Positions 9,760 to 21,203 of a stretch of DNA of 64,000 bases are shown piece by piece. Numbering within the stretch: the first letter of the stretch is position 1; every line of letters begins with the position of its first letter. This DNA is from an uncultured Lachnospiraceae bacterium (GTDB taxonomy: Bacteria; Bacillota; Clostridia; Lachnospirales; Lachnospiraceae): the NCBI GenBank assembly GCA_947623185.1, contig CANQGL010000004.1, forward strand, positions 1-64,000, written 5' to 3'. Position numbers and translations under genes: made by a program. A model generated the notes under the pieces. That model was not told the origin of the DNA, did no database searches, and saw only the letters and a list, made by a program, of their open reading frames with translations.

Positions 9760-9808
9760 ACCAGATCCCCTCCTTGGAAATTCAGCAAAATGCTTTGATC
9801 ATGGTTGT

Positions 9809-9839
9809 ATTGTAGCACATCTTTCTTTAATTTGTGCAA
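9809..9839 (-). promoter_or_regulatory. Probable promoter of the LUD-CBS unit
   Basis: On the minus strand TTGCAC, a 19-base spacer and TACAAT with an extended -10 (TGCTACAAT), about 50 bases before the LUD gene start. The long spacer is offset by the extended -10. Confidence 0.55.
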
Positions 9840-9875
9840 ACATGTAATGAACTTTTTATTAACTTTTTCCGCACA

Positions 9876-9927
9876 GGAAAAGAGCCCGGAAACTGCCGTC
9901 CTCCCGGCAGGCCCCGAACCCTTTTCC
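9876..9927 (-). terminator. Large hairpin after the catabolic locus, possible terminator or processing site
   Basis: Arms GGAAAAG and CTTTTCC enclose an inner CTGCCG/CGGCAG stem, 16 bases beyond the stop of the flavoprotein gene. The sequence after the hairpin on the minus strand is not T-rich, so an intrinsic terminator is uncertain; a 3' end stabilising hairpin is as likely. Confidence 0.45.
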
Positions 9928-9942
9928 CGTTTTATTATGCCT

Positions 9943-12411
9943 CTAAACCTGCTGTCCCAGGTCAACCATCTCGATATTGCCGTTCGGACACCGGTTGTAG
10001 CACATGCCGCAGGCCACGCATTCCTCCCTGCGGATATGCATCGTATCGGTATCGGATATCTCCGGCGCGAAATCGGTGCAGATCGTTTTGCAGAGCTGGC
10101 AGCCTTCGCCGCAGCCGCAGTTTAAGCACCGGGCCGCCTCCTTCCTGGCCTCTTCTTCGGTCATCACCCGGCTCTGGAATTCGAACCCGGCGATCCTCTC
10201 TTCGGCAGGCCGGTTCAGCCTGACCGGGTTCGGGTCCCGTTTCAGATATCCCGTGCGTTTGCGCACGAGCTCCAGGCTTACCGTCCGGACCTCGCCCACC
10301 GGTTTCAGGGCTCCGTTTTCTCCCATGATCCTGCGGTCAATGGCAGCCGCCCCGTTCTTTCCCGCGGCAATGGCGGCAGCGATATTGCCGGCTTTCGATC
10401 CGGTCCCGATCAGTACCTGTCCGCAGGACAGTTCCATAAGGATCCCGGCCTGCTCCAGGCGTATCTTTCCCGGAAGGATCTCAAGGACTTCTGCGCCTTC
10501 CAGCACGGCGACGCCCTCTTCTCTCGCCAGCGCCAGCACTTCCCTGTCATAGCTCAGCTTTCCCGGCATCCGGCGCAGCAGCATGACCTTTTTCGCGCCG
10601 AGCCGGACCGCGCTTCTCGCTGCGTCCGCGGCGTCGTACCCGTCTCCGATCACCGTCACGCATTCTTCTGTTTTCGGGCATCCGCCTCCGTTCAGTTCTT
10701 TCAGATACGCCAGAGCCGATCCGGCGTATTCCGCGCCTTTTAGCATGTCCGTCTTGCCGCCCGTATCTGCGTTTTCGGATCCGCCGGACACATACACGCC
10801 GTCAAATCCGTTTTTCCGCAGTTCTTCTTCCGTCACATCCTGTCCGAAGCAGAACCGGATCCCCTGTCTGCAGAGGAACTCGACCTCCGTATCGATCGCC
10901 TCCGCCGGAAGCGCATAGTCCGGGATGCCGAACCGCATCCGGCCGCCCGCTTCATTGTCTTTTTCAAACACCGTGACCTCATAGCCGCCCTTTGCCAGCT
11001 CCGCGGCGCAGGCAAGTCCGGACGGACCGGAACCGATCACGGCCGCCTTATGGCCGTTCGGTTTCGCGGCTGCCCAGGCCGGTTCCCATCCCTGCCGGCG
11101 TCCGTAGTCCAGAACAAAGCGTTTGATCTCTTTGATCTTTACCGGCGAGTCGTAGCCGCCGCGCACGCAGGCGTCCTCGCACGGATGCGCGCAGGCCAGG
11201 GCGCAGAGGTTCTGGAGCGGATTCCGCTCCGTGATCAGATCATAGGCCGCGCGGTAATCGCCAGCCGCCACCTTCTGAATATACGCCTGCGCCGGAACGT
11301 GAAGCGGACACGCGCTCTTGCAGGGCGCGGACAGATTCGGATCTTTGATCCTGGCGTAGCCCGCATAGAGCGTAACGTCGGTCGCGGTCCGCATCTGCGG
11401 AACGACGAGGCCGCGCATCTGATCCAGGCTCTCATATCCGTGTTCTTCCATATACTCATGCAGTCCGGCGATCATCGGGCGCACGATATCATAGCCGGAG
11501 ATCAGCGTCTCGGCGCATATTCCCAGGAGCGTTCCGCCGCAAAGCACCATCTCGACGGCGTCCTTCCAGTTTCGGATACCGCCGGTCGCCGTGACCGGGA
11601 CTTCGTTTCCGCAGACTTTGCGGATCTCGTAGGTATCGCGCTGCGCCAGCGGTTTCAGCCATCCGCTGCTGTAACAGCCCATCGAGATCTCCTTCTGGAG
11701 GTGATAAAACGCCTTCCCCGGATCGTCAAGATCGATCGGGGGCATCCCCAGCCGGTTGCCCGTCCCGCCGACCGCGTCGGCTCCGGCCGCATAGAGGGCT
11801 TTCGCCACCTGCGCGATCTGTCCGCCCTCCGGCGTCAGTTTGACGAACAGCGGGATCCGGAGCTCCTTTTTGATCGCCTCGACGATCTCTGCCGCAATGT
11901 CGGCATGCTGTCCCATGCTGGCTCCGGTCTGCTTGGCGGCGTGCTCGCTGCCGCCGCTCGTCATTTCCAGATTGTAGCTCATATTCGGGCAGCACATGTT
12001 GAGCTCGATGATGTCCGCTCCGGCCGCCTCGAACCGCTTCGCCATATTGACCCAGCCCCGGGGGCCGTCGTCTCCGGCGTAGGTGATGTTCGCCATCAGT
12101 TTCAGATCGTGGAGTTTCGGTTTCGCCTCCGAGACGAGCCGCAGACCTTCCTCAAACGTCAGGCGTTTTTCGGCCGTGAACGCCAGGGCGTTCCGGTCCT
12201 TGAACAGACTGTAGCGCGGCTTCCGGTTGATGTAGGGAGCAGGGTCGATGCTCAGCTTGATGCTGGCCGCCGCCCATCCGGTCTCCTCGATCCGCACGAG
12301 CTGCCGCACCGATTTTGTGGTCGGGCCGGAAGCCACATAGAAGGGATTTTTAAAGGTGATCCCGCCGACCGTGACCGGGATCCGGATCTCGTTGAACTCC
12401 TGTTTCATCAT
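9943..12411 (-). CDS. Fused PreA/PreT-like flavoprotein (dihydropyrimidine dehydrogenase-type modules, permuted order)
   Basis: Predicted iron-sulfur flavoprotein reductase of 822 aa. Residues about 10-340 are a dihydroorotate-dehydrogenase-like FMN barrel (PreA type), with active-site Cys141 in LNMCCPN. Residues 360-440 carry the cysteines of a GltD/PreT N-terminal domain (CKSACPLHVP, CALACAHPCEDACVRG). FAD (AVIGSGPSGLACAAEL) and NAD(P) (VTVIGDGYDAADAA) sites follow, and the last 60 residues have 4Fe-4S cysteines (CVACGMCYNRCPNGN). In mammalian dihydropyrimidine dehydrogenase the GltD part comes first, so the order here is permuted. Pyrimidine-contacting residues appear changed (TGNRLG for TNTVSG), so the substrate may not be uracil. 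ATG 12411 has GGAGGG upstream and starts one base after the Gfo/Idh stop; the track start is too long. Confidence 0.8.
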   Translation of the reverse strand: MMKQEFNEIRIPVTVGGITFKNPFYVASGPTTKSVRQLVRIEETGWAAASIKLSIDPAPYINRKPRYSLFKDRNALAFTAEKRLTFEEGLRLVSEAKPKLHDLKLMANITYAGDDGPRGWVNMAKRFEAAGADIIELNMCCPNMSYNLEMTSGGSEHAAKQTGASMGQHADIAAEIVEAIKKELRIPLFVKLTPEGGQIAQVAKALYAAGADAVGGTGNRLGMPPIDLDDPGKAFYHLQKEISMGCYSSGWLKPLAQRDTYEIRKVCGNEVPVTATGGIRNWKDAVEMVLCGGTLLGICAETLISGYDIVRPMIAGLHEYMEEHGYESLDQMRGLVVPQMRTATDVTLYAGYARIKDPNLSAPCKSACPLHVPAQAYIQKVAAGDYRAAYDLITERNPLQNLCALACAHPCEDACVRGGYDSPVKIKEIKRFVLDYGRRQGWEPAWAAAKPNGHKAAVIGSGPSGLACAAELAKGGYEVTVFEKDNEAGGRMRFGIPDYALPAEAIDTEVEFLCRQGIRFCFGQDVTEEELRKNGFDGVYVSGGSENADTGGKTDMLKGAEYAGSALAYLKELNGGGCPKTEECVTVIGDGYDAADAARSAVRLGAKKVMLLRRMPGKLSYDREVLALAREEGVAVLEGAEVLEILPGKIRLEQAGILMELSCGQVLIGTGSKAGNIAAAIAAGKNGAAAIDRRIMGENGALKPVGEVRTVSLELVRKRTGYLKRDPNPVRLNRPAEERIAGFEFQSRVMTEEEARKEAARCLNCGCGEGCQLCKTICTDFAPEISDTDTMHIRREECVACGMCYNRCPNGNIEMVDLGQQV

Positions 12412-12412
12412 A

Positions 12413-13483
12413 TCAGCCCTCCATACGATCGTTCCTGATACGGATCCCCTCTCTTGCCGAGCGGTAGATCCGGTCGATGACTCTGAGCGTCTCCAGCCCA
12501 TCCTTTCCGCGCAAACCGACCTGCGCTTCTTTTCCGGCAAGTGCACACTCCACAAAATGGAGGATCTCGTCGCAGTAGCCGAGGCTGTATTTTTCGTCGA
12601 CTGCCGGTGTGGACCAGCCGGTCGTGATCTCCGCTTTTTCGACCGTATAATCGAGTCCCGGGATCGAGAATACCTTCACCGGGCCCGAAAACGACAGATC
12701 GACATGGATGCAGCCCTGCTCGCAGTAAATATCGAGAACGTCTTCCATTCCGCCGACCGTCACATAATTGGCCTCCAGCGTGGCGTAAGTCCCATCCGCG
12801 AAGCGGATAAACACGCCTGCCCAGTCCTCGCCCTCCATCTTTTGGTGGACCAGGTTGGTCTCCCCGCCGCCGGAGGTCATCGCCGTCAGTTCGCTCCACC
12901 GGTTGTCCTTAAGCGCCAGCATGAATCCCACCGGATGGACTCCCAGATGGACCATGCATCCGCCGCCGCAGTAGCGGATCGACTGCGCGAACGGACTGTG
13001 CGAACCGCTGTGACATTCGCGCGCCCGGATATAGAGCGGCCGGCCGAGCTGCCCGCTCTCTAAGATCGCCTTTGCTTTTCTGAAAGCCGGGGCGAAAAGC
13101 CAGTCCTCCGCATAATAGATCTGTTTTCCGAGGCGTTCCGCCGTGGCGACCATGTCCTCCGCGTCCTCCACCGTGGTCGCCAGCGGTTTCTCGCAGATGA
13201 TATCCCGTCCGGCGTTCAGCGCTTTGATCGCCACTTCGTGGTGCAGGAAATTCGGCATACAGATATCGACCAGATCGCAGTCGCAGTCTTCGATCGCCGT
13301 ATTGAAATCATCGTACGCCCTGTAGCCGGTAAAACCGTACCGCTCCGCCAGTTCTTTGATCCGTCCCGTGTCTTTGTCGCAGATCCCCGCGATCTCGACA
13401 AGATCCGGGATACGGCTGTACCCGTCGGAATGGAGATCGGCGGAAAAAGCCGCTCCCACCAGCAATACTCTTAGCTTTTTCAT
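12413..13483 (-). CDS. Gfo/Idh/MocA family oxidoreductase
   Basis: NAD(P)-dependent dehydrogenase of 356 aa. The N-terminal Rossmann fold (LRVLLVGAAFSADLHSDG) is followed by CDKDTGRIKELAERYG and the family motif CEKPLA. The C-terminal substrate domain has GVHPVGFMLAL in the position of the catalytic histidine region. Members oxidise hydroxyl groups of sugars, cyclitols and glycosides, often at C3. The glycine motif (GAAFSA) is atypical. AAGAGGTGATTCC precedes ATG 13483; the track start is 21 codons too early. It follows the creatininase-family gene by 16 bases and nearly touches the flavoprotein gene, so all three are probably one pathway. Substrate unknown. Confidence 0.88.
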   Translation of the reverse strand: MKKLRVLLVGAAFSADLHSDGYSRIPDLVEIAGICDKDTGRIKELAERYGFTGYRAYDDFNTAIEDCDCDLVDICMPNFLHHEVAIKALNAGRDIICEKPLATTVEDAEDMVATAERLGKQIYYAEDWLFAPAFRKAKAILESGQLGRPLYIRARECHSGSHSPFAQSIRYCGGGCMVHLGVHPVGFMLALKDNRWSELTAMTSGGGETNLVHQKMEGEDWAGVFIRFADGTYATLEANYVTVGGMEDVLDIYCEQGCIHVDLSFSGPVKVFSIPGLDYTVEKAEITTGWSTPAVDEKYSLGYCDEILHFVECALAGKEAQVGLRGKDGLETLRVIDRIYRSAREGIRIRNDRMEG

Positions 13484-13499
13484 CGGAATCACCTCTTGA

Positions 13500-14240
13500 T
13501 CAGAAATAGCTGTAATTATACTTTTCCTTTTTTGCCATGTATTCAAACTCTTTCGTCAGATCGTCCACGATCAGCTCGGTCATGCGGGCGAAGATCTTCT
13601 CCCCCTTTTCGGCCGTCCCCTTGGTGGCCTCGCCCCAGACGCCCGATTTGCTTGCCCGCAGGACTCCTCCGTAATTCAGCCATGCGCGCGGGACCGTCGG
13701 GACCTCGTCGACCGCAAGGTCCATGTGTACGGTTTCGGGCGCGATCGCCAGCATCATGGATGTCTCGCTTTCGCCCGCGTGCAGTTCCGTACTCGTTTCG
13801 AGGATCCCCTCTTTGTAGAGAACGGAACCGTAATTGCAGGTGTCAGCCAGAGCCACCAGAAGATCCGGATTGTTCTTCGCGTTCAGGTCGCGGACCAGCG
13901 GAGTCATGATAAAGATCCCGCCGTGGCACTGGATGATGCCGATCCGCTTAAACCCCTGCAGTTTTAAGCTCATGGCGATGTCCGTCATCATCTGGTAGAA
14001 CGTCACCGGCTCCATCCAGACCGAGCCCTTCTTTCCCATCTGTTCGCGGCAGGTCGAGATCGGAAAGGCCGGGAGCAGATAGGCGTCCATCTTTTCCGCC
14101 ACCCGTTTCCCGAGCTCCGTCGCGATCGCCCAGTCCGTCATGATCGGAAGATGGGGGCCGTGCTGCTCGATCGAGCCGACCGATATCAATGCAAGTTCCG
14201 GATCCTTTTCATGGATCTCGTCGATCGTTTTCTGATACAT
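13500..14240 (-). CDS. Creatininase-family metal-dependent hydrolase
   Basis: Creatininase-fold protein of 246 aa with the signature GSIEQHGPHLP. Glu25, His27, Asp36, His106 (in QCHGG) and Glu159 (in HAGESETS) align with metal-binding positions of the family, so it looks catalytically competent. The usual NGHGGN is replaced by QCHGGI. The family includes creatinine amidohydrolase, FAPy deformylase, MftE and the inosose hydrolase IolN, so the bond cleaved could be a cyclic amide or a ring C-C bond. Sitting beside a Gfo/Idh/MocA dehydrogenase, an IolN-like role is one plausible reading (inference). GAAGGAGAACG precedes the ATG. Confidence 0.85.
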   Translation of the reverse strand: MYQKTIDEIHEKDPELALISVGSIEQHGPHLPIMTDWAIATELGKRVAEKMDAYLLPAFPISTCREQMGKKGSVWMEPVTFYQMMTDIAMSLKLQGFKRIGIIQCHGGIFIMTPLVRDLNAKNNPDLLVALADTCNYGSVLYKEGILETSTELHAGESETSMMLAIAPETVHMDLAVDEVPTVPRAWLNYGGVLRASKSGVWGEATKGTAEKGEKIFARMTELIVDDLTKEFEYMAKKEKYNYSYF

Positions 14241-14264
14241 TATCGTTCTCCTTCCTCACAGATA

Positions 14265-14299
14265 GACCGGCAGCCCGGCAGACGGGCCGCCGTCCGGTC
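14265..14299 (-). other. Intergenic hairpin between NagB-like and creatininase-family genes
   Basis: GACCGG and CCGGTC arms with an inner GCCCG/CGGGC stem, covering the stop codon of the NagB-like gene. There is no T-tract, so it is more likely an mRNA stability or processing element than a terminator. Confidence 0.35.
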
Positions 14300-15062
14300 A
14301 CAGGATCTTCGACGCGCTGTCCCGGTCCAGATACAGCGCCGCGTTCTTATGGCGGCGCAGGATGCTCGACGGACAGGCCGTTGCGACCGGCCCGTAAAGC
14401 GCATTGTAGACCGCGTTCGCCTTGCGGTCCGTCGGGACCACACAGATCGCTTCCGGCACGGACATGATATACGACATCGAGAGCGTCATCGCCTGATTCG
14501 GCACGTCGTCGAACGTATCGAAGCACCCGTCGTTGACCTGCTGCTGGCGGCAAACGTCATCCAGTTCCACCACCTTGATGCTCTTCGGATCGTCGAAATC
14601 CGCCACGGCCGGATCGTTGAAAGCCAGATGTCCGTTCTCGCCGATCCCCAGAAAGATCAGGTCGGTCGGATATTTCTTCAGGAGCTCCGCATATTCGTCG
14701 CATTTCTCCTCCGCTCTGTCCTCGTCGCAGAGAAGAAAATAGGATTCCTTAAAGGGCGCCTTATCGAAGATCGCACGCCGCAGGAAATTGCCGAATCCCG
14801 CCGGCTCCTCCTCGTCGATCCCGATGTATTCGTCCTGATGGAAACCGCGGACTTTCGTCCAGTCGATGTCCTCTTTCAGGAGATTTTCCAGAAGCTCGTT
14901 CTGGGACGGCGCGGCCGCAAATACAATGTTCGCCACCCCGTTTTTTTCGATGATCGCATTGATCCTCTGCGCCGCGTCCTTCGCCGCGGCCCGGCCGAGC
15001 TCCTTGCGGTCGTCATATACATAGACCGGAAGATTTTCTACTTTTCTAGTCAAAATTTCCAC
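14298..15062 (-). CDS. NagB-like (glucosamine-6-phosphate deaminase/isomerase family) protein
   Basis: Protein of 254 aa with the NagB/6-phosphogluconolactonase fold. Asp77 in FHQDEYIGI matches the proton-transfer Asp72 of E. coli NagB, and His145 in GIGENGHLAFNDP matches His143. NagB Asp141 is Asn143 here and Glu148 is Asp150. The GGTP-type phosphate loop reads AAAPSQNE. These changes mark a divergent subfamily, and no sugar kinase is encoded in the locus, so an unphosphorylated sugar-like substrate is possible (inference). GTG start at 15062 with AGGAGG eight bases upstream. It begins 14 bases after the transporter genes and is the first enzyme of the series. Confidence 0.8.
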   Translation of the reverse strand: MEILTRKVENLPVYVYDDRKELGRAAAKDAAQRINAIIEKNGVANIVFAAAPSQNELLENLLKEDIDWTKVRGFHQDEYIGIDEEEPAGFGNFLRRAIFDKAPFKESYFLLCDEDRAEEKCDEYAELLKKYPTDLIFLGIGENGHLAFNDPAVADFDDPKSIKVVELDDVCRQQQVNDGCFDTFDDVPNQAMTLSMSYIMSVPEAICVVPTDRKANAVYNALYGPVATACPSSILRRHKNAALYLDRDSASKIL

Positions 15063-15076
15063 TTTTACTCCTCCTG

Positions 15077-15793
15077 TCAGTTTCTTTCAGAGCCAAGATA
15101 AGCGGCAGCCACCTCCGGATTGTTGAGCATTTCGCTGCCGGTCCCGGACAGTACGACCCGCCCGGTTTCGATTACATATGCACGGTCACAGATCCCAAGG
15201 GATTTTTTTGCATTCTGTTCGACGAGGATGACCGTGATCCCCTCGTCCCGGATCCGCACGATGTTGCGGAACACTTCGTTCACCACGACGGGCGCCAGGC
15301 CGAGCGACGGTTCGTCGAGCATCAGGATCCTGGGCTTTCCCATCAGACCGCGGCAGATCGCGAGCATCTGCTGTTCGCCGCCGGAAAGCGTGCCCGCATC
15401 CTGCTTTTTCCGTTCCCCCAGCCGGGGAAACAACGCATACTGTTCCTCCAGGAGCCGGTTGATCTCCTTGCGGTCCTTCACCGTGTAAGCGCCTGCCAGA
15501 AGATTTTCCTCCACCGTCAGTCCGGCGAATATCTTTCTTCCCTCCGGCACCTGGATGATCCCGTCCTTAACGATACGGTTCGCCTTGTCGGAGAGCGGTT
15601 TTCCGTTGTAAAGGATCTCCCCCTGTCGCTTTACCATGCCGGATATCGCATTGATGATCGTCGTTTTCCCGGCCCCGTTGGAGCCGATGATCGCGGTGAT
15701 CGTTCCCTCGGCTATGTCCATATCCACGCCGCACACCGCTTCGTGGACTCCGTAGAATACCTTCAGATTCCGAATCTCAAGAATCCCCGCCAT
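15077..15793 (-). CDS. Liv-type ABC transporter ATP-binding protein (LivF-like)
   Basis: ATPase of 238 aa with Walker A GSNGAGKTT, signature LSGGEQQMLAICRGL and Walker B ILMLDEPSLGL, followed by the LivF-type ending (VVLSGTGSEMLNNPEVAAAYLG). With the LivG-like protein it powers an importer of the branched-chain amino acid/amide (HAAT) family. These importers also carry urea, amides and aromatic acids, so the family does not define the substrate. It starts three bases after the stop of the LivG-like gene. Confidence 0.93.
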   Translation of the reverse strand: MAGILEIRNLKVFYGVHEAVCGVDMDIAEGTITAIIGSNGAGKTTIINAISGMVKRQGEILYNGKPLSDKANRIVKDGIIQVPEGRKIFAGLTVEENLLAGAYTVKDRKEINRLLEEQYALFPRLGERKKQDAGTLSGGEQQMLAICRGLMGKPRILMLDEPSLGLAPVVVNEVFRNIVRIRDEGITVILVEQNAKKSLGICDRAYVIETGRVVLSGTGSEMLNNPEVAAAYLGSERN

Positions 15794-15796
15794 CCG

Positions 15797-16570
15797 TCAC
15801 TCCTCCTCCCCGAGATACGCTTTCAGTACCAGCGGATTGTTCCGGATCTCATCCGGCTTTCCCTTCGCGATCGTCTCACCGAAATCCTGCACATAGATGT
15901 AATCGCTGAGGTTCATGACCAGGTCCATGCGGTGCTCGATCACCAGGATCGCCAGTTTCGGATACTTCGTTTTGATCGCGCGGATGAAATCGACCAGCTG
16001 GAACACCTCCTCCGGGTTCAGTCCGGCCGCCGGTTCATCCAGCATCAGCACCTTGGGATCCGAGACGAGCGCGCGGGCGATCTCCACACGGCGCTGTATG
16101 CCGTAAGGCAGGTTCTCCGGGCGCGCTTCCGCATAGCGGTCCAGCTCGAGAAGCTTTAAGCAGGCCATCGCGCGGGCGGTCGTCTCCTTCTCCGTGCGGA
16201 ATCTGCGCGGAAGCAGGAGCATCGCCTCAAGCAGTGTATATTTGCCCGCGAAATCCAGCGCCACCTTCACGTTGTCGAGAACGCTCAGTCCCGTAAACAG
16301 TCTGGTATTCTGGAAGGTGCGGGAGACGCCCATACGAGCGGTCTCGATCTGCGTTTTGCCCGTGATATCCGTTCCGTCAAACTCGATCGTTCCCTTATCG
16401 GGCTGATAGATCTTGGAGATCAGGTTGAAGATCGTGGTCTTCCCGGCCCCGTTCGGGCCGATGATCGCCAGGATCTCCCCTTCGCGGATCTCAAAACTGA
16501 AGTCCTGGACCGCGATAACGCCGCCGAAGTTTTTATGCAGATGTTCCGTTTTCAGGATCGGTCCGCTCAT
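15797..16570 (-). CDS. Liv-type ABC transporter ATP-binding protein (LivG-like)
   Basis: ATPase of 257 aa with Walker A GPNGAGKTT, Walker B VLMLDEPAAGLNPEE and the longer loop typical of LivG. The LSGGQ signature is replaced by LPYGIQRRVEIARAL, as is usual for this subunit. Partner of the LivF-like ATPase on the cytoplasmic face of the importer. Its ATG overlaps the stop of the LivM-like gene by four bases (ATGA). Confidence 0.93.
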   Translation of the reverse strand: MSGPILKTEHLHKNFGGVIAVQDFSFEIREGEILAIIGPNGAGKTTIFNLISKIYQPDKGTIEFDGTDITGKTQIETARMGVSRTFQNTRLFTGLSVLDNVKVALDFAGKYTLLEAMLLLPRRFRTEKETTARAMACLKLLELDRYAEARPENLPYGIQRRVEIARALVSDPKVLMLDEPAAGLNPEEVFQLVDFIRAIKTKYPKLAILVIEHRMDLVMNLSDYIYVQDFGETIAKGKPDEIRNNPLVLKAYLGEEE

Positions 16571-17472
16571 GTGCTTTCCCCTCCTTCCCTGTCACGCGGT
16601 TTTCCTGCGAACAGGCCGCGAAGGAATGAAAGGCTCAGCTCCCGCTCGCCGAGGAGCCCCTTCGTGCGAAGATTGATGACAACAATGATCAGCAGGCAGT
16701 AGATGATCGTCTTGCAGTTCTGCAGATCGATGCCGAACAGTTTGACGCCTTTCAGGAATTCGGGCAGCACCTTCAGGCAGGCAGCGGAGATCACCGAGCC
16801 GGTCAGGGAATTCGTGCCGCCGAAGAATAGAAGGATCTGCATTTCCGCCGAGAGCGACCAGTCGAAGGCATCGGGAGAGATGACCCGATTCCTGAGACCG
16901 TAGCAGATCCCACCGACGCCGGCGATCAGCGACGCGATGACGTAGATCTTGACCCTCAGACCGTGCACGTCGATCCCAAAACTGCGGGCTGCGATATCAT
17001 CGTTCTTTAAGGCAATACACATGCGGCCGAACCGCGAATACTTGAGATTGCGCACCATGAACACGATCAGCACCGTGATTGCCAGGATTATGTAGACCAG
17101 ATTGTTCACCTTCGGGATCTTGGAAAAACCGATCGCCGCGTTTGTATATTTGTCAAGCAGAATAATGATCGACTGCACCATCTGCCCGAATCCGATCGTC
17201 ATCAGTGCCAGGTAATCACGCCGCAGTCGCAGAGTCGGCATACCGATCACAAAGGCGACGAGCGCACAGCCCGCCAGACCGATGATCGACGTGACCCAGA
17301 CCGGCAGGTTCTGATATCTTGCGATACAGAAAGTCAGATAGGCGCTGATCGCCATGTAAGAAGCCTGCCCCAGCGAGAACATGCCCGCAAGGCTTGTGAT
17401 CGCGAACACGCCGCAGACCGTGATGATGGAGATGCAGGCCAGCATGATCAGGGAAAGTTGGTAATTACTCAT
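16567..17472 (-). CDS. Liv-type ABC transporter permease (LivM-like)
   Basis: Membrane protein of 301 aa, mostly hydrophobic helices, with the permease signatures SLGQASYMAISAYLTF near the N-terminus and GMPTLRLRRDYLALMTIGFGQ after it. A charged cytoplasmic tail (LRGLFAGKPRDREGGEST) ends the protein. It forms the translocation channel with the LivH-like subunit. Its ATG, with GGAGG upstream, lies 11 bases after the LivH-like gene. Confidence 0.92.
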   Translation of the reverse strand: MSNYQLSLIMLACISIITVCGVFAITSLAGMFSLGQASYMAISAYLTFCIARYQNLPVWVTSIIGLAGCALVAFVIGMPTLRLRRDYLALMTIGFGQMVQSIIILLDKYTNAAIGFSKIPKVNNLVYIILAITVLIVFMVRNLKYSRFGRMCIALKNDDIAARSFGIDVHGLRVKIYVIASLIAGVGGICYGLRNRVISPDAFDWSLSAEMQILLFFGGTNSLTGSVISAACLKVLPEFLKGVKLFGIDLQNCKTIIYCLLIIVVINLRTKGLLGERELSLSFLRGLFAGKPRDREGGEST

Positions 17473-17483
17473 AGCCAGCCTCC

Positions 17484-18365
17484 TTATACTTTGTCTTTGG
17501 CAAATCTGCCGGAAATGCCCTCCGGGCGCACCGTCAGAAACAGCAGCATGATCCCGAACAGCACGATCGGGGTAGACAGCGATCCGAGCCAGTAGGTGAG
17601 GAAGATCTCCACCACACCCAGTGCGATCGCCGCCACGATCGCGCCGCCCAGGCTTCCGAGACCGCCGATGACCGAAACGATAAATCCTTTGGTCATCATA
17701 GACGGCCCGAGCGACGGATAAACCGAAAACTTTGTGCCTAAAAGCACGCCGGATATCCCGGCCAGCGCTCCCGCGATCGCGAAAACAGCCATGATGACGA
17801 CACTGGAGTTGATCCCCATAAGCTGGCTCGTGGAAGGACTGATGGCGACCGTGCGGATCGCAAGTCCGATCTTGGTCTTATTGATCACAAAGATCAGAGC
17901 GCTTAAGATCGCAAGCGAGATCACCATGATCAGCGTATCGATCGAAGAAAAACGAAGTCCGCCGATGCTGAACGTCGTGCTGGAAAAGATCGGCGCATAT
18001 GTGTGAAGGTTCTTCCCGAAAAAGACGCTTAAGATCTGTTCGATCAAAATCGCGACTGTGATCGACATCAGGAAATAGTAAAGACCCGGAGCCTGTTTTT
18101 TTCGGATATTGCGATACGCGATCGTGTCGATCAGAAGCGCCATCAGGACTCCGACGCCCGTGGTGAAAAGCGCAGTTACAATAAAAGGCGGCGGTTCTTC
18201 AAACGAACTTTGAAAAAAGTATCCGATAAACGCACAGGCGCTGATCATGCCGCCATGAGCTATATTGCTGAATTTGAATATACTGAACACAATGGCAAAT
18301 CCGACCGCGATCAGCGCATAGACCGCGCCAAGAGAGAACCCGCTGATTAGTAATTGAAGTGTCAT
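17484..18365 (-). CDS. Liv-type ABC transporter permease (LivH-like)
   Basis: Membrane protein of 293 aa that begins with the LivH-type segment LLISGFSLGAVYALIAVGFAIVFS. It also has FSNIAHGGMISACAFIGYF and GGLGSLGGAIVAAIALGVVE. It is the second channel subunit of the importer. The track ORF starts 19 codons earlier; ATG 18365 is chosen because AAGGAGG lies upstream and the protein then starts at the conserved first helix. It lies 114 bases after the binding-protein gene, with a terminator-like hairpin in between. Confidence 0.92.
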   Translation of the reverse strand: MTLQLLISGFSLGAVYALIAVGFAIVFSIFKFSNIAHGGMISACAFIGYFFQSSFEEPPPFIVTALFTTGVGVLMALLIDTIAYRNIRKKQAPGLYYFLMSITVAILIEQILSVFFGKNLHTYAPIFSSTTFSIGGLRFSSIDTLIMVISLAILSALIFVINKTKIGLAIRTVAISPSTSQLMGINSSVVIMAVFAIAGALAGISGVLLGTKFSVYPSLGPSMMTKGFIVSVIGGLGSLGGAIVAAIALGVVEIFLTYWLGSLSTPIVLFGIMLLFLTVRPEGISGRFAKDKV

Positions 18366-18414
18366 AGCATAGATTCCTCCTTGATAGATCATAAAAAGAA
18401 AGCAACGTTTCTTT

Positions 18415-18445
18415 AAAAACATGGGCGGGCAAAACGCCCGCCCAT
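18415..18445 (-). terminator. Intra-operon terminator between binding-protein and permease genes
   Basis: Perfect 10-bp stem (ATGGGCGGGC and GCCCGCCCAT, five-base loop) followed on the minus strand by GTTTTTAAAG. It lies between the substrate-binding protein gene and the permease gene. Partial termination here would give more binding protein than membrane components, as is common in ABC importer operons. Confidence 0.85.
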
Positions 18446-18479
18446 CAGGTAACGCCTCCGACCGGCTGTGATGTGAGAA

Positions 18480-19754
18480 TTATTCTGCTTTGTAGTCGGA
18501 GGTCAGATAAGTTTGAACTTCCTCTGTGGTGCCGTCTTCATTGTAAGTAACGATAAACATACCCATGTCGCGTGTCGGACGGTGCGTCTCGGGGACAAGA
18601 GTAATATTGACTTCACCGGCAGACTCGATATCCACGGTCTTGTTTTCAAGGATGTCGCGGACTTCCTCGCCGTTGGTCGGATCCTCAGCCTGCTGCATGG
18701 CGCTTGCCAGAACCTGAACCGCATCCCAGCCGAAACCTACATTGCCCGACGGATAATCCGTTCCGGTTTCTTCCATATGGACCTTTACGAGGTCGGCGAT
18801 CTTTCCGGAAGTAAAGTCATAGTTCTTAACATAATAGCAGTCCTTGACCGGATTCTTCACCAGCGTGTTAAACGGCGCGGCCATGGTGTTTGCTCCCAGA
18901 ATGTATCCCTCATACCCGGCATCGCGCAGGTTGTCGTAAGCCGTGACCATCTGATTTGCATAGTCGGTCAGAAGCACAGCGTCCGGATTCAGGGAAGCGA
19001 TCTTCTGCGCCTGTGCGGAATAATCGGTATCGGCCCAGCCGAAGGTCTCCTCGGCAAGGACCTCGCCGCCGTTGTTTACGAAATAATCAACGAACGGTTT
19101 TTCCTGCGTAACAGCGAACGCGTTCGAGGTATTGTAAAGAGAAGCAACACTCTTGATGCCCAGTTCATCCAGCGCATATTTTGCAAGAATGTATCCCTGA
19201 ACGGCGCTCGACGGCTCGACGAGGAACATATACGGATAGGCTTCTCCGGTGTCCGGATCCGTCGTACAGATCTCATCCATGAAATGTCCGACGATCGGAA
19301 CCTTATCCTCGGTCGCCAGGTCCACCCATGCGGAAGCCGGGTTGGACAGAGGCGGGCCAATGATGGCGCAAACGCCGACTTCATCGACCAGCTCGCGGTA
19401 AACGGTCACGCCGACCTCGGTGTCATTCTGGCAGTCACGGCAGTAGATCTCGATCGGACGGCCGTTGATCCCGCCGTTTTCATTGATGATCCTCACCGCA
19501 TATTCGGCTCCCCACTGGTTCGGCTGTCCGGCGCTGGATGCGCCGCCGGTCGTATCCTGAATACATCCGATCTTGATCGGATCCGTATTGGCCTCAGCCT
19601 GGGGCTCTGCCGCTTCTTTTTCCGCCGCCGGAGCTTCCGTTTCGGCAGACGCCGCCTGCGTTGCCGGAGCCGTGGATCCGCCGCCGGAGCAGCCGATCAG
19701 CTGGCTTGCAGTCAGAGCACAGATCAAAAATGCTGCAAAAAGTTTTTTCATCAT
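18480..19754 (-). CDS. Liv-type ABC transporter substrate-binding lipoprotein
   Basis: Extracellular binding protein of 424 aa. The signal peptide ends in the lipobox QLIGC, so it is a membrane-anchored lipoprotein. An Ala/Glu/Pro-rich linker follows to about residue 55, then a type 1 periplasmic-binding fold of the LivK/HAAT group (IKIGCIQDTTGGASSAGQPNQ, GGINGRPIEIYCRDCQND, ALYNTSNAFAVTQEKPF...). It captures the imported compound; the ligand cannot be read from the sequence. ATG 19754 has GGAGG five bases upstream, and the track start is 22 codons too early. It is the first gene after the promoter with two operators. Confidence 0.93.
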   Translation of the reverse strand: MMKKLFAAFLICALTASQLIGCSGGGSTAPATQAASAETEAPAAEKEAAEPQAEANTDPIKIGCIQDTTGGASSAGQPNQWGAEYAVRIINENGGINGRPIEIYCRDCQNDTEVGVTVYRELVDEVGVCAIIGPPLSNPASAWVDLATEDKVPIVGHFMDEICTTDPDTGEAYPYMFLVEPSSAVQGYILAKYALDELGIKSVASLYNTSNAFAVTQEKPFVDYFVNNGGEVLAEETFGWADTDYSAQAQKIASLNPDAVLLTDYANQMVTAYDNLRDAGYEGYILGANTMAAPFNTLVKNPVKDCYYVKNYDFTSGKIADLVKVHMEETGTDYPSGNVGFGWDAVQVLASAMQQAEDPTNGEEVRDILENKTVDIESAGEVNITLVPETHRPTRDMGMFIVTYNEDGTTEEVQTYLTSDYKAE

Positions 19755-19848
19755 CGTTTCCTCCATTCCTTTTTTCATTCTATCTATCACAACGCGTGCT
19801 GTTTCTGCGTCTGCGAACATGGGATACGGACACCAAAGAGACTCATCG

Positions 19849-19874
19849 AGGGTTAGAAAACGTTTTCTAACCCT
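19849..19874. promoter_or_regulatory. LacI-type operator O1 (perfect 26-bp palindrome)
   Basis: A perfect palindrome around the core AGAAAACGTTTTCT with a central CG, the hallmark of LacI-family operators. It lies about 90 bases downstream of the predicted transcription start and about 95 bases before the binding-protein gene. Confidence 0.8.
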
Positions 19875-19966
19875 TTTTACTGAAAAATCAGCAAATTAAT
19901 GAATTAAATATCATGTGAAAAAATCTGTCGATGGTAACGTGGAAATTTACTGTCTTATTTAACTTG

Positions 19967-19995
19967 ATTATACTGACATTAAAGAGAAAATGCAA
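19967..19995 (-). promoter_or_regulatory. Promoter of the catabolic/transport operon
   Basis: On the minus strand TTGCAT, a 17-base spacer and TATAAT. It lies between two copies of the operator core and reads into the binding-protein gene, leaving a leader of about 200 bases. Confidence 0.85.
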
Positions 19996-20027
19996 GTCTT
20001 TTTTCAAAAATTCTTGATAATTTTAAT

Positions 20028-20041
20028 AGAAAACGTTTTCT
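20028..20041. promoter_or_regulatory. LacI-type operator O2
   Basis: AGAAAACGTTTTCT, identical to the 14-base core of O1, centred about 173 bases from it and upstream of the -35 box. The pair brackets the promoter, an arrangement suited to repression by looping. Confidence 0.8.
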
Positions 20042-20069
20042 GGCATCTTGACGGTGCGGCTGAGAATCG

Positions 20070-21128
20070 TTATAATGACCGTAACGGGTCCGGATCTCTG
20101 GGCGCGACCGTGCTGCGGATCACCAGCCGGGGAGCCAGGTTCATCGAGATCGCCATGCCCTGCGTCTCCAGAACATCCAGCAGCATCAGCGCCGCGAGAC
20201 GCCCCGTCTCCACCGCGGGATAATGGACCGTCGTGAGCGGCGGGATAAAGGCGCCGGCAAACGGAATATCGTCGAACCCCATCACGGATACGTCCTCGGG
20301 CACCCGCTTTCCGCTCTGAAGAAACGTCCGGATCATGCCGATCGCCAGCATGTCGTTGATGCACAGAACGGCCGTCGCCGGGCAGTTCCGTTTCAGGAAA
20401 TCTTCCGCGATCCGGCATCCGGTCTGCATCTCAAAATCGCCGGGTGCTTCCGCATGGGACATCGCGCACTCGAAAACGAGTTCCTTCTCGAGCGGCAGTC
20501 CGGCCATCAGCAGGGCCTCGCGATACCCTTCGTACATCTCGACACGCGTCCAGCGCGTCATCTCCGTCGTTGCGAAGGCGATCTTCCGGTGCCCCTGCTC
20601 GATCAGATAGTTCACCGCCATGCGCGCTCCGGCCCTTGAATCGAAGTTGATACCCGGGCTGTCCACGCCCTCGATCATCTGATCCAGCATGATAAACTTC
20701 ATTCCGAGTTTGGAATATCTCTGCACCAGCTGCGCGTTGTCGTCGACCGAGGAGAGTATGACCCCTCTGGTCTGGCGTTCGTAAAGGCGGCTCAGAAACT
20801 TCCGCTCCTGTCCGGCGTCGCGCATGGTATTGCACAGGATCATATCGTAGGAATTTTTTGCAAGTACGTCGTTGATCCCCAGCATCGCCTGCAGATAGAA
20901 CGGGTTCGACACGTTCGGGATCACCAGGCCGATATCGCGGCAGCCGTCGCCCCGCAGCGAACGGGCCATCACGTTCGGAACATACTCGAGCTGCTCGGCA
21001 GCTTCCTTCACTTTCTGGCGCAGTTTTGCATTGACGGGATAATCGGGATTGTTTAGGGCGCGGGAGGCCGTAGCGACCGAAACTCCTGCCAGTTTCGCCA
21101 CATCGCGGATCGTTGTCTGTCTGCTCAT
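20070..21128 (-). CDS. LacI-family transcriptional regulator
   Basis: Regulator of 352 aa. The N-terminal helix-turn-helix (TTIRDVAKLAGVSVATASRALN) and hinge helix (VPNVMARSLRG) are typical of LacI. A periplasmic-binding-like effector domain follows (DIGLVIPNVSNPFYLQAMLGIND, GRLAALMLLDVLE). It very likely controls the adjacent transport and enzyme genes through the two palindromes just downstream. LacI regulators usually sense sugars or sugar derivatives, a hint to the substrate class. ATG 21128 follows AAGGAAG; the track start adds 19 unlikely residues. Confidence 0.93.
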   Translation of the reverse strand: MSRQTTIRDVAKLAGVSVATASRALNNPDYPVNAKLRQKVKEAAEQLEYVPNVMARSLRGDGCRDIGLVIPNVSNPFYLQAMLGINDVLAKNSYDMILCNTMRDAGQERKFLSRLYERQTRGVILSSVDDNAQLVQRYSKLGMKFIMLDQMIEGVDSPGINFDSRAGARMAVNYLIEQGHRKIAFATTEMTRWTRVEMYEGYREALLMAGLPLEKELVFECAMSHAEAPGDFEMQTGCRIAEDFLKRNCPATAVLCINDMLAIGMIRTFLQSGKRVPEDVSVMGFDDIPFAGAFIPPLTTVHYPAVETGRLAALMLLDVLETQGMAISMNLAPRLVIRSTVAPRDPDPLRSL

Positions 21129-21203
21129 ATCGGATCTTCCTTTCGTGATCGGTGATTTCGACTGCCTGTACTTATAGTTTATCACAATCGTTCAGAAACG
21201 CAA

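Follow-up and report, generated by a model that had tools for sequence, protein, structure and literature searches.

P0001, an iron-sulphur (Fe-S) flavoprotein encoded at positions 9943 to 12411 of the window (the whole 64,000-nucleotide stretch of DNA from an uncultured Lachnospiraceae bacterium that was analysed here), belongs to a clade in which the NAD(P)H/FAD lobe has eroded while the FMN barrel and the Fe-S ligands have been kept. The explanation that best accounts for the evidence as a whole, to which we assign a probability of about one half, is that P0001 is a PreA-like enzyme with a substrate other than a pyrimidine, a vestigial lobe and an electron supply from an outside carrier.

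Domain layout and the origin of the ferredoxin tail

The minus strand from 12411 to 9943 is one uninterrupted open reading frame of 822 residues, and the plus-strand frame at the same coordinates is interrupted by stops. Pfam recognises DHO_dh at residues 13-321 (E 1e-23), Fer4_20 at 362-441, Pyr_redox_2 at 455-693 and Fer4 at 793-813, and the gene is laid out as follows:

9943..12411, minus strand: P0001, Fe-S flavoprotein of 822 residues with barrel, GltD-like part and ferredoxin tail (single open reading frame; Pfam; AF2 model with mean pLDDT 88)
11407..12384, minus strand: DHOD/PreA-type FMN barrel, residues 10-335, catalytic Cys141 corresponding to DPD C671 (PF01180, E 1e-23; K52, N138, C141 and K191 invariant)
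11089..11328, minus strand: Fer4_20 domain, residues 362-441, six invariant cysteines (PF14691, E 1.8e-18; cysteine table)
10312..11064, minus strand: eroded FAD/NAD(P)-binding lobe, residues 450-700 (HMM score of 160 bits against 404-532 in intact members; relaxed dN/dS in the clade)
9952..10158, minus strand: C-terminal tail, residues 752-820, ten invariant cysteines, two probable [4Fe-4S] clusters (collinear with PRK12771 positions 426-563; cysteine table)

An antisense frame of 462 codons (window 11050..12438, plus strand) fully overlaps the gene; shadow frames of this kind recur in high-GC relatives of P0001 and are probably not genes. Long antisense frames initially polluted our clusters of neighbouring genes, and a composition filter took out most of them.

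The preliminary description took the protein for dihydropyrimidine dehydrogenase modules in a new order, the PreT part having been inserted between the PreA barrel and its ferredoxin tail. The order of barrel, GltD-like part and ferredoxin is real, being kept in 79 loci that are nearly all full length, which also rules out a frameshift fusion of two genes; but it is not a novelty, since E. coli YgfK has it. Nor is the tail PreA's own, separated from its barrel by an insert: the match to the PreA model is confined to residues 13-407 of P0001, while PRK12771, a model of GltD plus ferredoxin, covers 359-646 and a C-terminal stretch that includes the tail collinearly, and the tail therefore belongs to the GltD module. 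None of the NCBIfam cut-offs is reached by P0001 (PRK12771, 288 of 516 bits; PreA, NF006183, 192 of 335; YgfK, TIGR03315, 187 of 835), and all three models match every one of the 49 relatives that were aligned. Between the barrel's end and the tail, the profile of the P0001 family aligns collinearly with YgfK (E 4e-63, the match spanning 171-879); the GltD part of YgfK begins near residue 450 of 1032 and is followed by an Fe-S tail, and the positions of these other domains imply that its barrel is N-terminal. Mammalian DPD has the order GltD, barrel, ferredoxin (PMC8097209), and in E. coli PreT and PreA are separate. Work from 2025 identified YgfK as the NAD(P)H-dependent enzyme that reduces yanthine when urate is broken down reductively; it has an FMN site, where the substrate binds, and an FAD site (modelled) (PMC12507026).

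Substrate pocket and family boundaries

Barrels were aligned with PreA and pig DPD by sequence rather than by superposition, and the DPD numbering was checked on a phmmer alignment. The equivalents of DPD K574, N668, C671 and K709 are invariant in all 78 full-length members of the family. Four pyrimidine contacts retained by both PreA and DPD are, by contrast, replaced throughout: N609 by A, T or V, N736 by G, A or S, and T737 by N, with the following V738 changed to R, in 78 of 78, and E611 by K or R in 77 of 78 (R in five, T in one). The preliminary reading of these changes by eye was correct in substance, but its mapping of the contact residues was half wrong. LNMCCPN is the active-site cysteine region, carrying the equivalents of N668 and C671, and TGNRLG aligns with the N736/T737 site. 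TYAGDDG, which had been assigned to Asn609, instead aligns with DPD 642-648; N609 and E611 (SFLNIELI in DPD) align with AFTAEKRL in P0001, the alignment near P0001 residues 80-83 being somewhat uncertain. With the catalytic set kept and the contacts exchanged, the hydride and proton machinery would appear to be conserved and pyrimidine recognition swapped for an equally strict but more cationic set, which suggests that the substrate is anionic. As far as such alignments can tell, P0001 is very probably not a pyrimidine enzyme. Thus, of the earlier proposal of a reductase for a non-pyrimidine C=C bond, the non-pyrimidine part is well supported by the lost contacts and a barrel clade of its own, and the C=C reduction is plausible, although its direction is something that we infer.

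A scan of 84,980 genomes found 79 loci with relatives of P0001, at 40-76% identity and in the same domain order, in about ten phyla (Bacillota, Chloroflexota, Planctomycetota, Verrucomicrobiota, Kiritimatiellota, Lentisphaerota, Bacteroidota, Acidobacteriota, Gemmatimonadota and Spirochaetota, together with candidate phyla). When the window's class was sampled evenly, ten other genomes proved to carry the enzyme, with barrel identities of 65-81%, and the next relatives beyond the family are standalone proteins of 393-400 residues at 33-34%, a drop that marks the family as sharply bounded. The barrel tree agrees: the P0001 family, PreA/DPD and the 393-residue group stand apart, each with 100% bootstrap, and the P0001 family is separated from PreA/DPD at 100/99. 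This subfamily of PreA/DHOD barrels fused to a GltD-ferredoxin module is new, although the YgfK-type order was already known. Its distribution close to the window is patchy, the enzyme being absent from both same-genus genomes checked and from all 298 other genomes of the same taxonomic family; the operon at 9943-21185 is therefore scattered in its occurrence, and may be a product of horizontal transfer.

Two side observations concern individual relatives. Standalone barrels of 393-400 residues with a two-cluster ferredoxin tail (L110-L115; 33% identity to P0001) also lack the pyrimidine contacts (AGAQSSLPLVD, DRR, ANMVCPNV) and are possibly UacX-like. One contig (L048) carries two copies of the enzyme, at 241-2673 and 9797-12619, one intact and one decayed; the decayed copy has lost the NAD motifs and several Fer4_20 cysteines, and is the sole full-length member in which decayed Fe-S ligands were seen.

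Relaxed constraint in the NAD(P)H/FAD lobe

A GltD/PreT-type FAD-NAD(P) part had been recognised in P0001 from the start, and a GltD-like module is indeed present, but the erosion of its lobe argues against NAD(P)H as the donor. P0001 retains the first FAD motif (GSGPSG) and is missing both the NADP loop (YRRTxDEMP) and the second FAD motif (AGGD). Among the 78 full-length members, 42 have a standard GltD lobe of 252-262 residues over the aligned stretch, with GxGxxG, GGGFTA, YRRTxDEMP and AGGD, and 36 do not, their lobes measuring 167-260 residues over the same stretch. In a tree built without the lobe, 33 degenerate members, including P0001, form one clade (support 98), and three changes altogether account for the loss of motifs; the exceptions, a pair from R. 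cellobioparum and one L048 copy, changed separately, the pair only mildly, and since the lobes of that pair still score 356-357 bits only the main clade makes a strong case. In this clade the NADP loop is lost, with the YRRT and MP columns unconserved where they are kept in 42 of 42 intact members, and 4 of 33 members keep the Asp of the second FAD motif, against 42 of 42; the first FAD motif is present in 31 of 33. These column counts, and HMM scores, were used in place of a strict scan for GGGFTA, which is too stringent for the NAD fold (P0001 has GDGYDA).

An HMM built from non-clostridial intact lobes scores the clade at 26-274 bits (P0001 at 160), against 404-470 for intact Clostridia and 404-532 for intact members overall. 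The result was replicated in an independent sample, in which six degenerate lobes (86-240 bits) and four intact ones (410-467 bits) did not overlap. Barrel scores differ little (476-527 bits in the clade, 509-548 in intact Clostridia), and mean barrel identity is 0.77 in the clade and 0.78 in its intact sister, whereas identity in the NAD region is 0.41 against 0.78; the tail is not reduced (0.76 against 0.67). Estimates of dN/dS, which are rough because they come from simple counting with dS often near saturation, are 0.18 in the clade and 0.05 in the intact sister for the NAD region, and 0.04 and 0.07 for the barrel. All 16 Fe-S cysteines are present in 76 of 78 rows, the exceptions being a contig-truncated row and the decayed L048 paralogue. 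Individual proteins illustrate the range: Pyr_redox_2 scores 116 bits in intact L026, 73 in L019, 47 in P0001, 25 in L056 and nothing in L074, the extreme case, in which Pfam finds the barrel, Fer4_20 and Fer4 with no detectable FAD/NAD domain. Compared by Foldseek with the NADP(H)-bound large subunit of NfnI, P0001 gives a TM score of 0.57 over 372 columns and intact L026 0.78 over 435. Anaerotruncus colihominis (L056), whose genome is complete, shows the erosion too. These data show a live gene with constraint relaxed in a single module, and neither a pseudogene nor an assembly artefact.

It is likely, on this evidence, that NAD(P)H is no longer the direct donor in the degenerate clade. A less probable reading is that the lobe is divergent yet functional and that the enzyme remains NAD(P)H-dependent through altered contacts. 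P0001 does retain GxGxxG, a GxGxxA-like GDGYDA (a motif partly kept across the clade) and an RR pair, so that weak binding of FAD or NAD(P)H is possible; a dN/dS of 0.18 is purifying, being far below 1, and implies that the lobe is still under selection for something; and AF2 models what remains of it with fair confidence. Against this stand the loss of both the NADP loop and the second FAD motif, shortening by up to about 90 residues, and the existence of a member, L074, in which the domain cannot be detected, and we consider continued NAD(P)H dependence unlikely.

Operon, electron partner and known systems

P0001 lies at the end of an operon whose other members are all encoded on the same strand:

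12413..13483, minus strand: Gfo/Idh/MocA dehydrogenase, 1 nt upstream of P0001 (PF01408, E 1.4e-26; likely start at an internal ATG, MKKLRV)
13500..14240, minus strand: creatininase-family metallohydrolase (PF02633, E 1e-52)
14298..15062, minus strand: NagB-like sugar isomerase/deaminase with a changed phosphate loop, AAAPSQ (PF01182, E 7e-17)
15077..19820, minus strand: Liv-type ABC transporter, comprising LivF, LivG, LivM and LivH (to 18422) and a substrate-binding protein at 18480-19820 (Pfam for LivF and the binding protein; open reading frames)
20070..21185, minus strand: LacI-family regulator, probably of the operon (PF00356/PF13377)

The Gfo/Idh gene is the most constant neighbour, lying within 400 bp in 31 of 32 degenerate and 26 of 43 other loci, and the NagB-like and creatininase genes accompany 25 of the 32 degenerate loci and 3 of the 43 others; given this difference, function may differ between the two groups. 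Liv orthologues occur in the same order in six relatives (L019, L023, L025, L028, L029 and L043). In relatives the operon is extended by malic enzyme, by KDG kinase or KDPG aldolase, by an SDR, or by a dehydrogenase of the Ldh_2 or 2-hydroxyacid type. The genome of the window carries relatives of KDG kinase but neither an Ldh_2 nor a close SDR, which leaves the window's four enzymes as the core set. In the creatininase homologue the metal-ligand motifs are intact, and the NagB homologue keeps DEY and GENGH, with AAAPSQ, invariant in the NagB-like proteins of this operon, replacing the phosphate loop; we take the meaning of all these motifs from general knowledge of the families, and the last suggests a non-phosphorylated substrate. 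A literature search found no paper on a cluster of Gfo/Idh, PreA-like and creatininase genes. From these neighbours we would tentatively place the substrate among ketone-activated acidic cyclic sugars or cyclitol derivatives, because a ketone made by the Gfo/Idh enzyme would acidify the adjoining C-H bond, as the DHOD/DPD mechanism needs.

Some intact relatives of planctomycete type (L064, L065, L069 and L082) adjoin a carbamoyltransferase-family gene, and L064 and L065 additionally have Peptidase_C26 and amidohydrolase_2 genes, all unlike the sugar-type operons. A urate-type pathway, to which such genes might point, is unsupported for the window.

Two other assignments of the barrel are much less credible. 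As kin of YgfK and UacX, P0001 might be a reductase of yanthine or another purine; the shared domain order and the profile match over 171-879 speak for this, as do the genes for amidohydrolase_3 or a carbamoyltransferase that adjoin certain intact relatives. The YgfK model, however, covers only residues 362-651 and falls far below its cut-off, the barrels have no BLAST match, the carbamoyltransferase is best matched by ornithine carbamoyltransferase models, and beside the window gene XdhD, SsnA, HyuA, YgeW, YgeY and YgeX are absent and sugar-type genes stand in their place, all of which makes a purine substrate very unlikely. An ordinary dihydropyrimidine dehydrogenase with drifted residues is less believable still: it can appeal to the PreA match of 192 bits, but that is below the cut-off of 335, every pyrimidine contact is changed with most of the replacements themselves invariant, and the operon is without dihydropyrimidinase or ureidopropionase.

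In the mechanism that we propose, Cys141 would act as proton donor or base and FMN as hydride carrier on a Calpha-Cbeta bond beside a carbonyl that the Gfo/Idh partner probably generates; the substrate, we suggest tentatively, would be an acidic cyclic sugar or cyclitol derivative, with the Liv transporter as its importer. With the NAD(P)H/FAD lobe vestigial in the clade, an external donor, for which reduced ferredoxin is the best candidate, would feed FMN through the conserved Fe-S chain; retention of the barrel and Fe-S chain alongside decay of the NAD(P)H site is the pattern to be expected if the electron partner has changed. There are precedents: PydAc, a protein without FAD/NAD domains, uses ferredoxin to reduce uracil (PMC7332683), the same is proposed for UacX with yanthine (PMC12507026), and 2-naphthoyl-CoA reductase, which has a different fold, is missing the NADPH site present in dienoyl-CoA reductase and is believed to use a ferredoxin-like donor (PMC6502838). 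We favour a ferredoxin-driven reduction, while putting its chances at roughly even, on the grounds that the GltD-linked barrels that have been characterised are reductases and that the hosts are apparently for the most part anaerobes. It counts against this view that the window operon contains no ferredoxin gene. NfnAB genes, for a ferredoxin:NADP transhydrogenase, lie upstream of the enzyme in L042, L032 and L036 (in L032 by family search), and in L042 directly before the NagB-like gene.

The same components could also run in the oxidative direction, the FMN barrel dehydrogenating a ketose or inosose, with ETF or some other acceptor receiving the electrons by way of the Fe-S tail. Cys141 would then take the alpha proton and the beta hydride would leave, converting a beta-hydroxy ketone, the first ketone of which the Gfo/Idh partner would supply, to the enol of a 1,3-diketone. 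Compounds of that type are cleaved by the creatininase-family hydrolase IolN, which the operon's hydrolase weakly matches (58 bits), and the coupling of creatininase-family and NagB-like genes to degenerate loci would fit, as would the KDG kinase and KDPG aldolase of several operons; moreover, trimethylamine and histamine dehydrogenases bind ADP in place of FAD and deliver 4Fe-4S electrons to ETF (PMC6502838). The IolN score, however, is under its cut-off (245) and lower than the scores of the MftE and creatininase models, the characterised GltD-linked barrels (DPD and YgfK) and PydAc are all reductases, and it would be an uphill reaction to pass electrons on to ferredoxin from an alcohol or a C-C bond. 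We regard the oxidative reading as improbable overall.

Fe-S flavoenzymes are assemblies of interchangeable electron modules, and while clostridial PydAc is the end state, with the module gone and ferredoxin used, the P0001 family seems to be half-way there. As intact and eroded forms occur in sister clades of equal barrel divergence, a switch of donor can be tested enzyme against enzyme. A broader and more speculative proposition, which we hold to be possible but doubtful, is that this widespread family represents a new anaerobic step in sugar-acid or cyclitol metabolism, a DHOD-type (de)hydrogenation of a Gfo/Idh-made ketone, with the change of electron partner taking place in an intact polypeptide whose NAD(P)H module degenerates in situ to a scaffold, a course that would parallel that of the OYE-type enzymes 2-naphthoyl-CoA reductase and trimethylamine dehydrogenase. 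The family also marks a conserved operon of gut and sediment anaerobes, combining Gfo/Idh and P0001-type enzymes, often with NagB-like and creatininase genes, and P0001-type proteins should not be annotated as dihydropyrimidine dehydrogenase.

Several known systems share features with P0001. YgfK has the same collinear series of barrel, Fer4_20 with FAD/NAD lobe and 4Fe-4S tail, but its barrel is unlike that of P0001 by BLAST or Pfam, and it has an intact NAD(P)H lobe and a purine pathway context (PMC12507026). Mammalian DPD and bacterial PreTA (PydA) share the catalytic K574, N668, C671 and K709, a GltD-like electron input and 4Fe-4S clusters; they are arranged as GltD, barrel and ferredoxin or as two subunits, however, and P0001 lacks their pyrimidine contacts. 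PydAc of Clostridium chromiireducens and UacX of C. difficile combine a PreA-type barrel and Fe-S clusters with no working NAD(P)H module, as P0001 putatively does, and their donor is ferredoxin, shown for PydAc and proposed for UacX; the GltD domain is wholly missing there and present but eroded in P0001, and the pocket differs. GltD-ferredoxin proteins of the PRK12771/NfnABC type are collinear with P0001 359-816, tail included, but have no DHOD barrel, and their nucleotide sites are intact. Finally, 2-naphthoyl-CoA reductase and trimethylamine and histamine dehydrogenases are precedents in their way of working, joining an FMN barrel and a 4Fe-4S cluster to a nucleotide lobe that has lost NADPH or FAD function and using an external one-electron partner (PMC6502838), but their architecture is of the OYE type, and the resemblance would be convergent.
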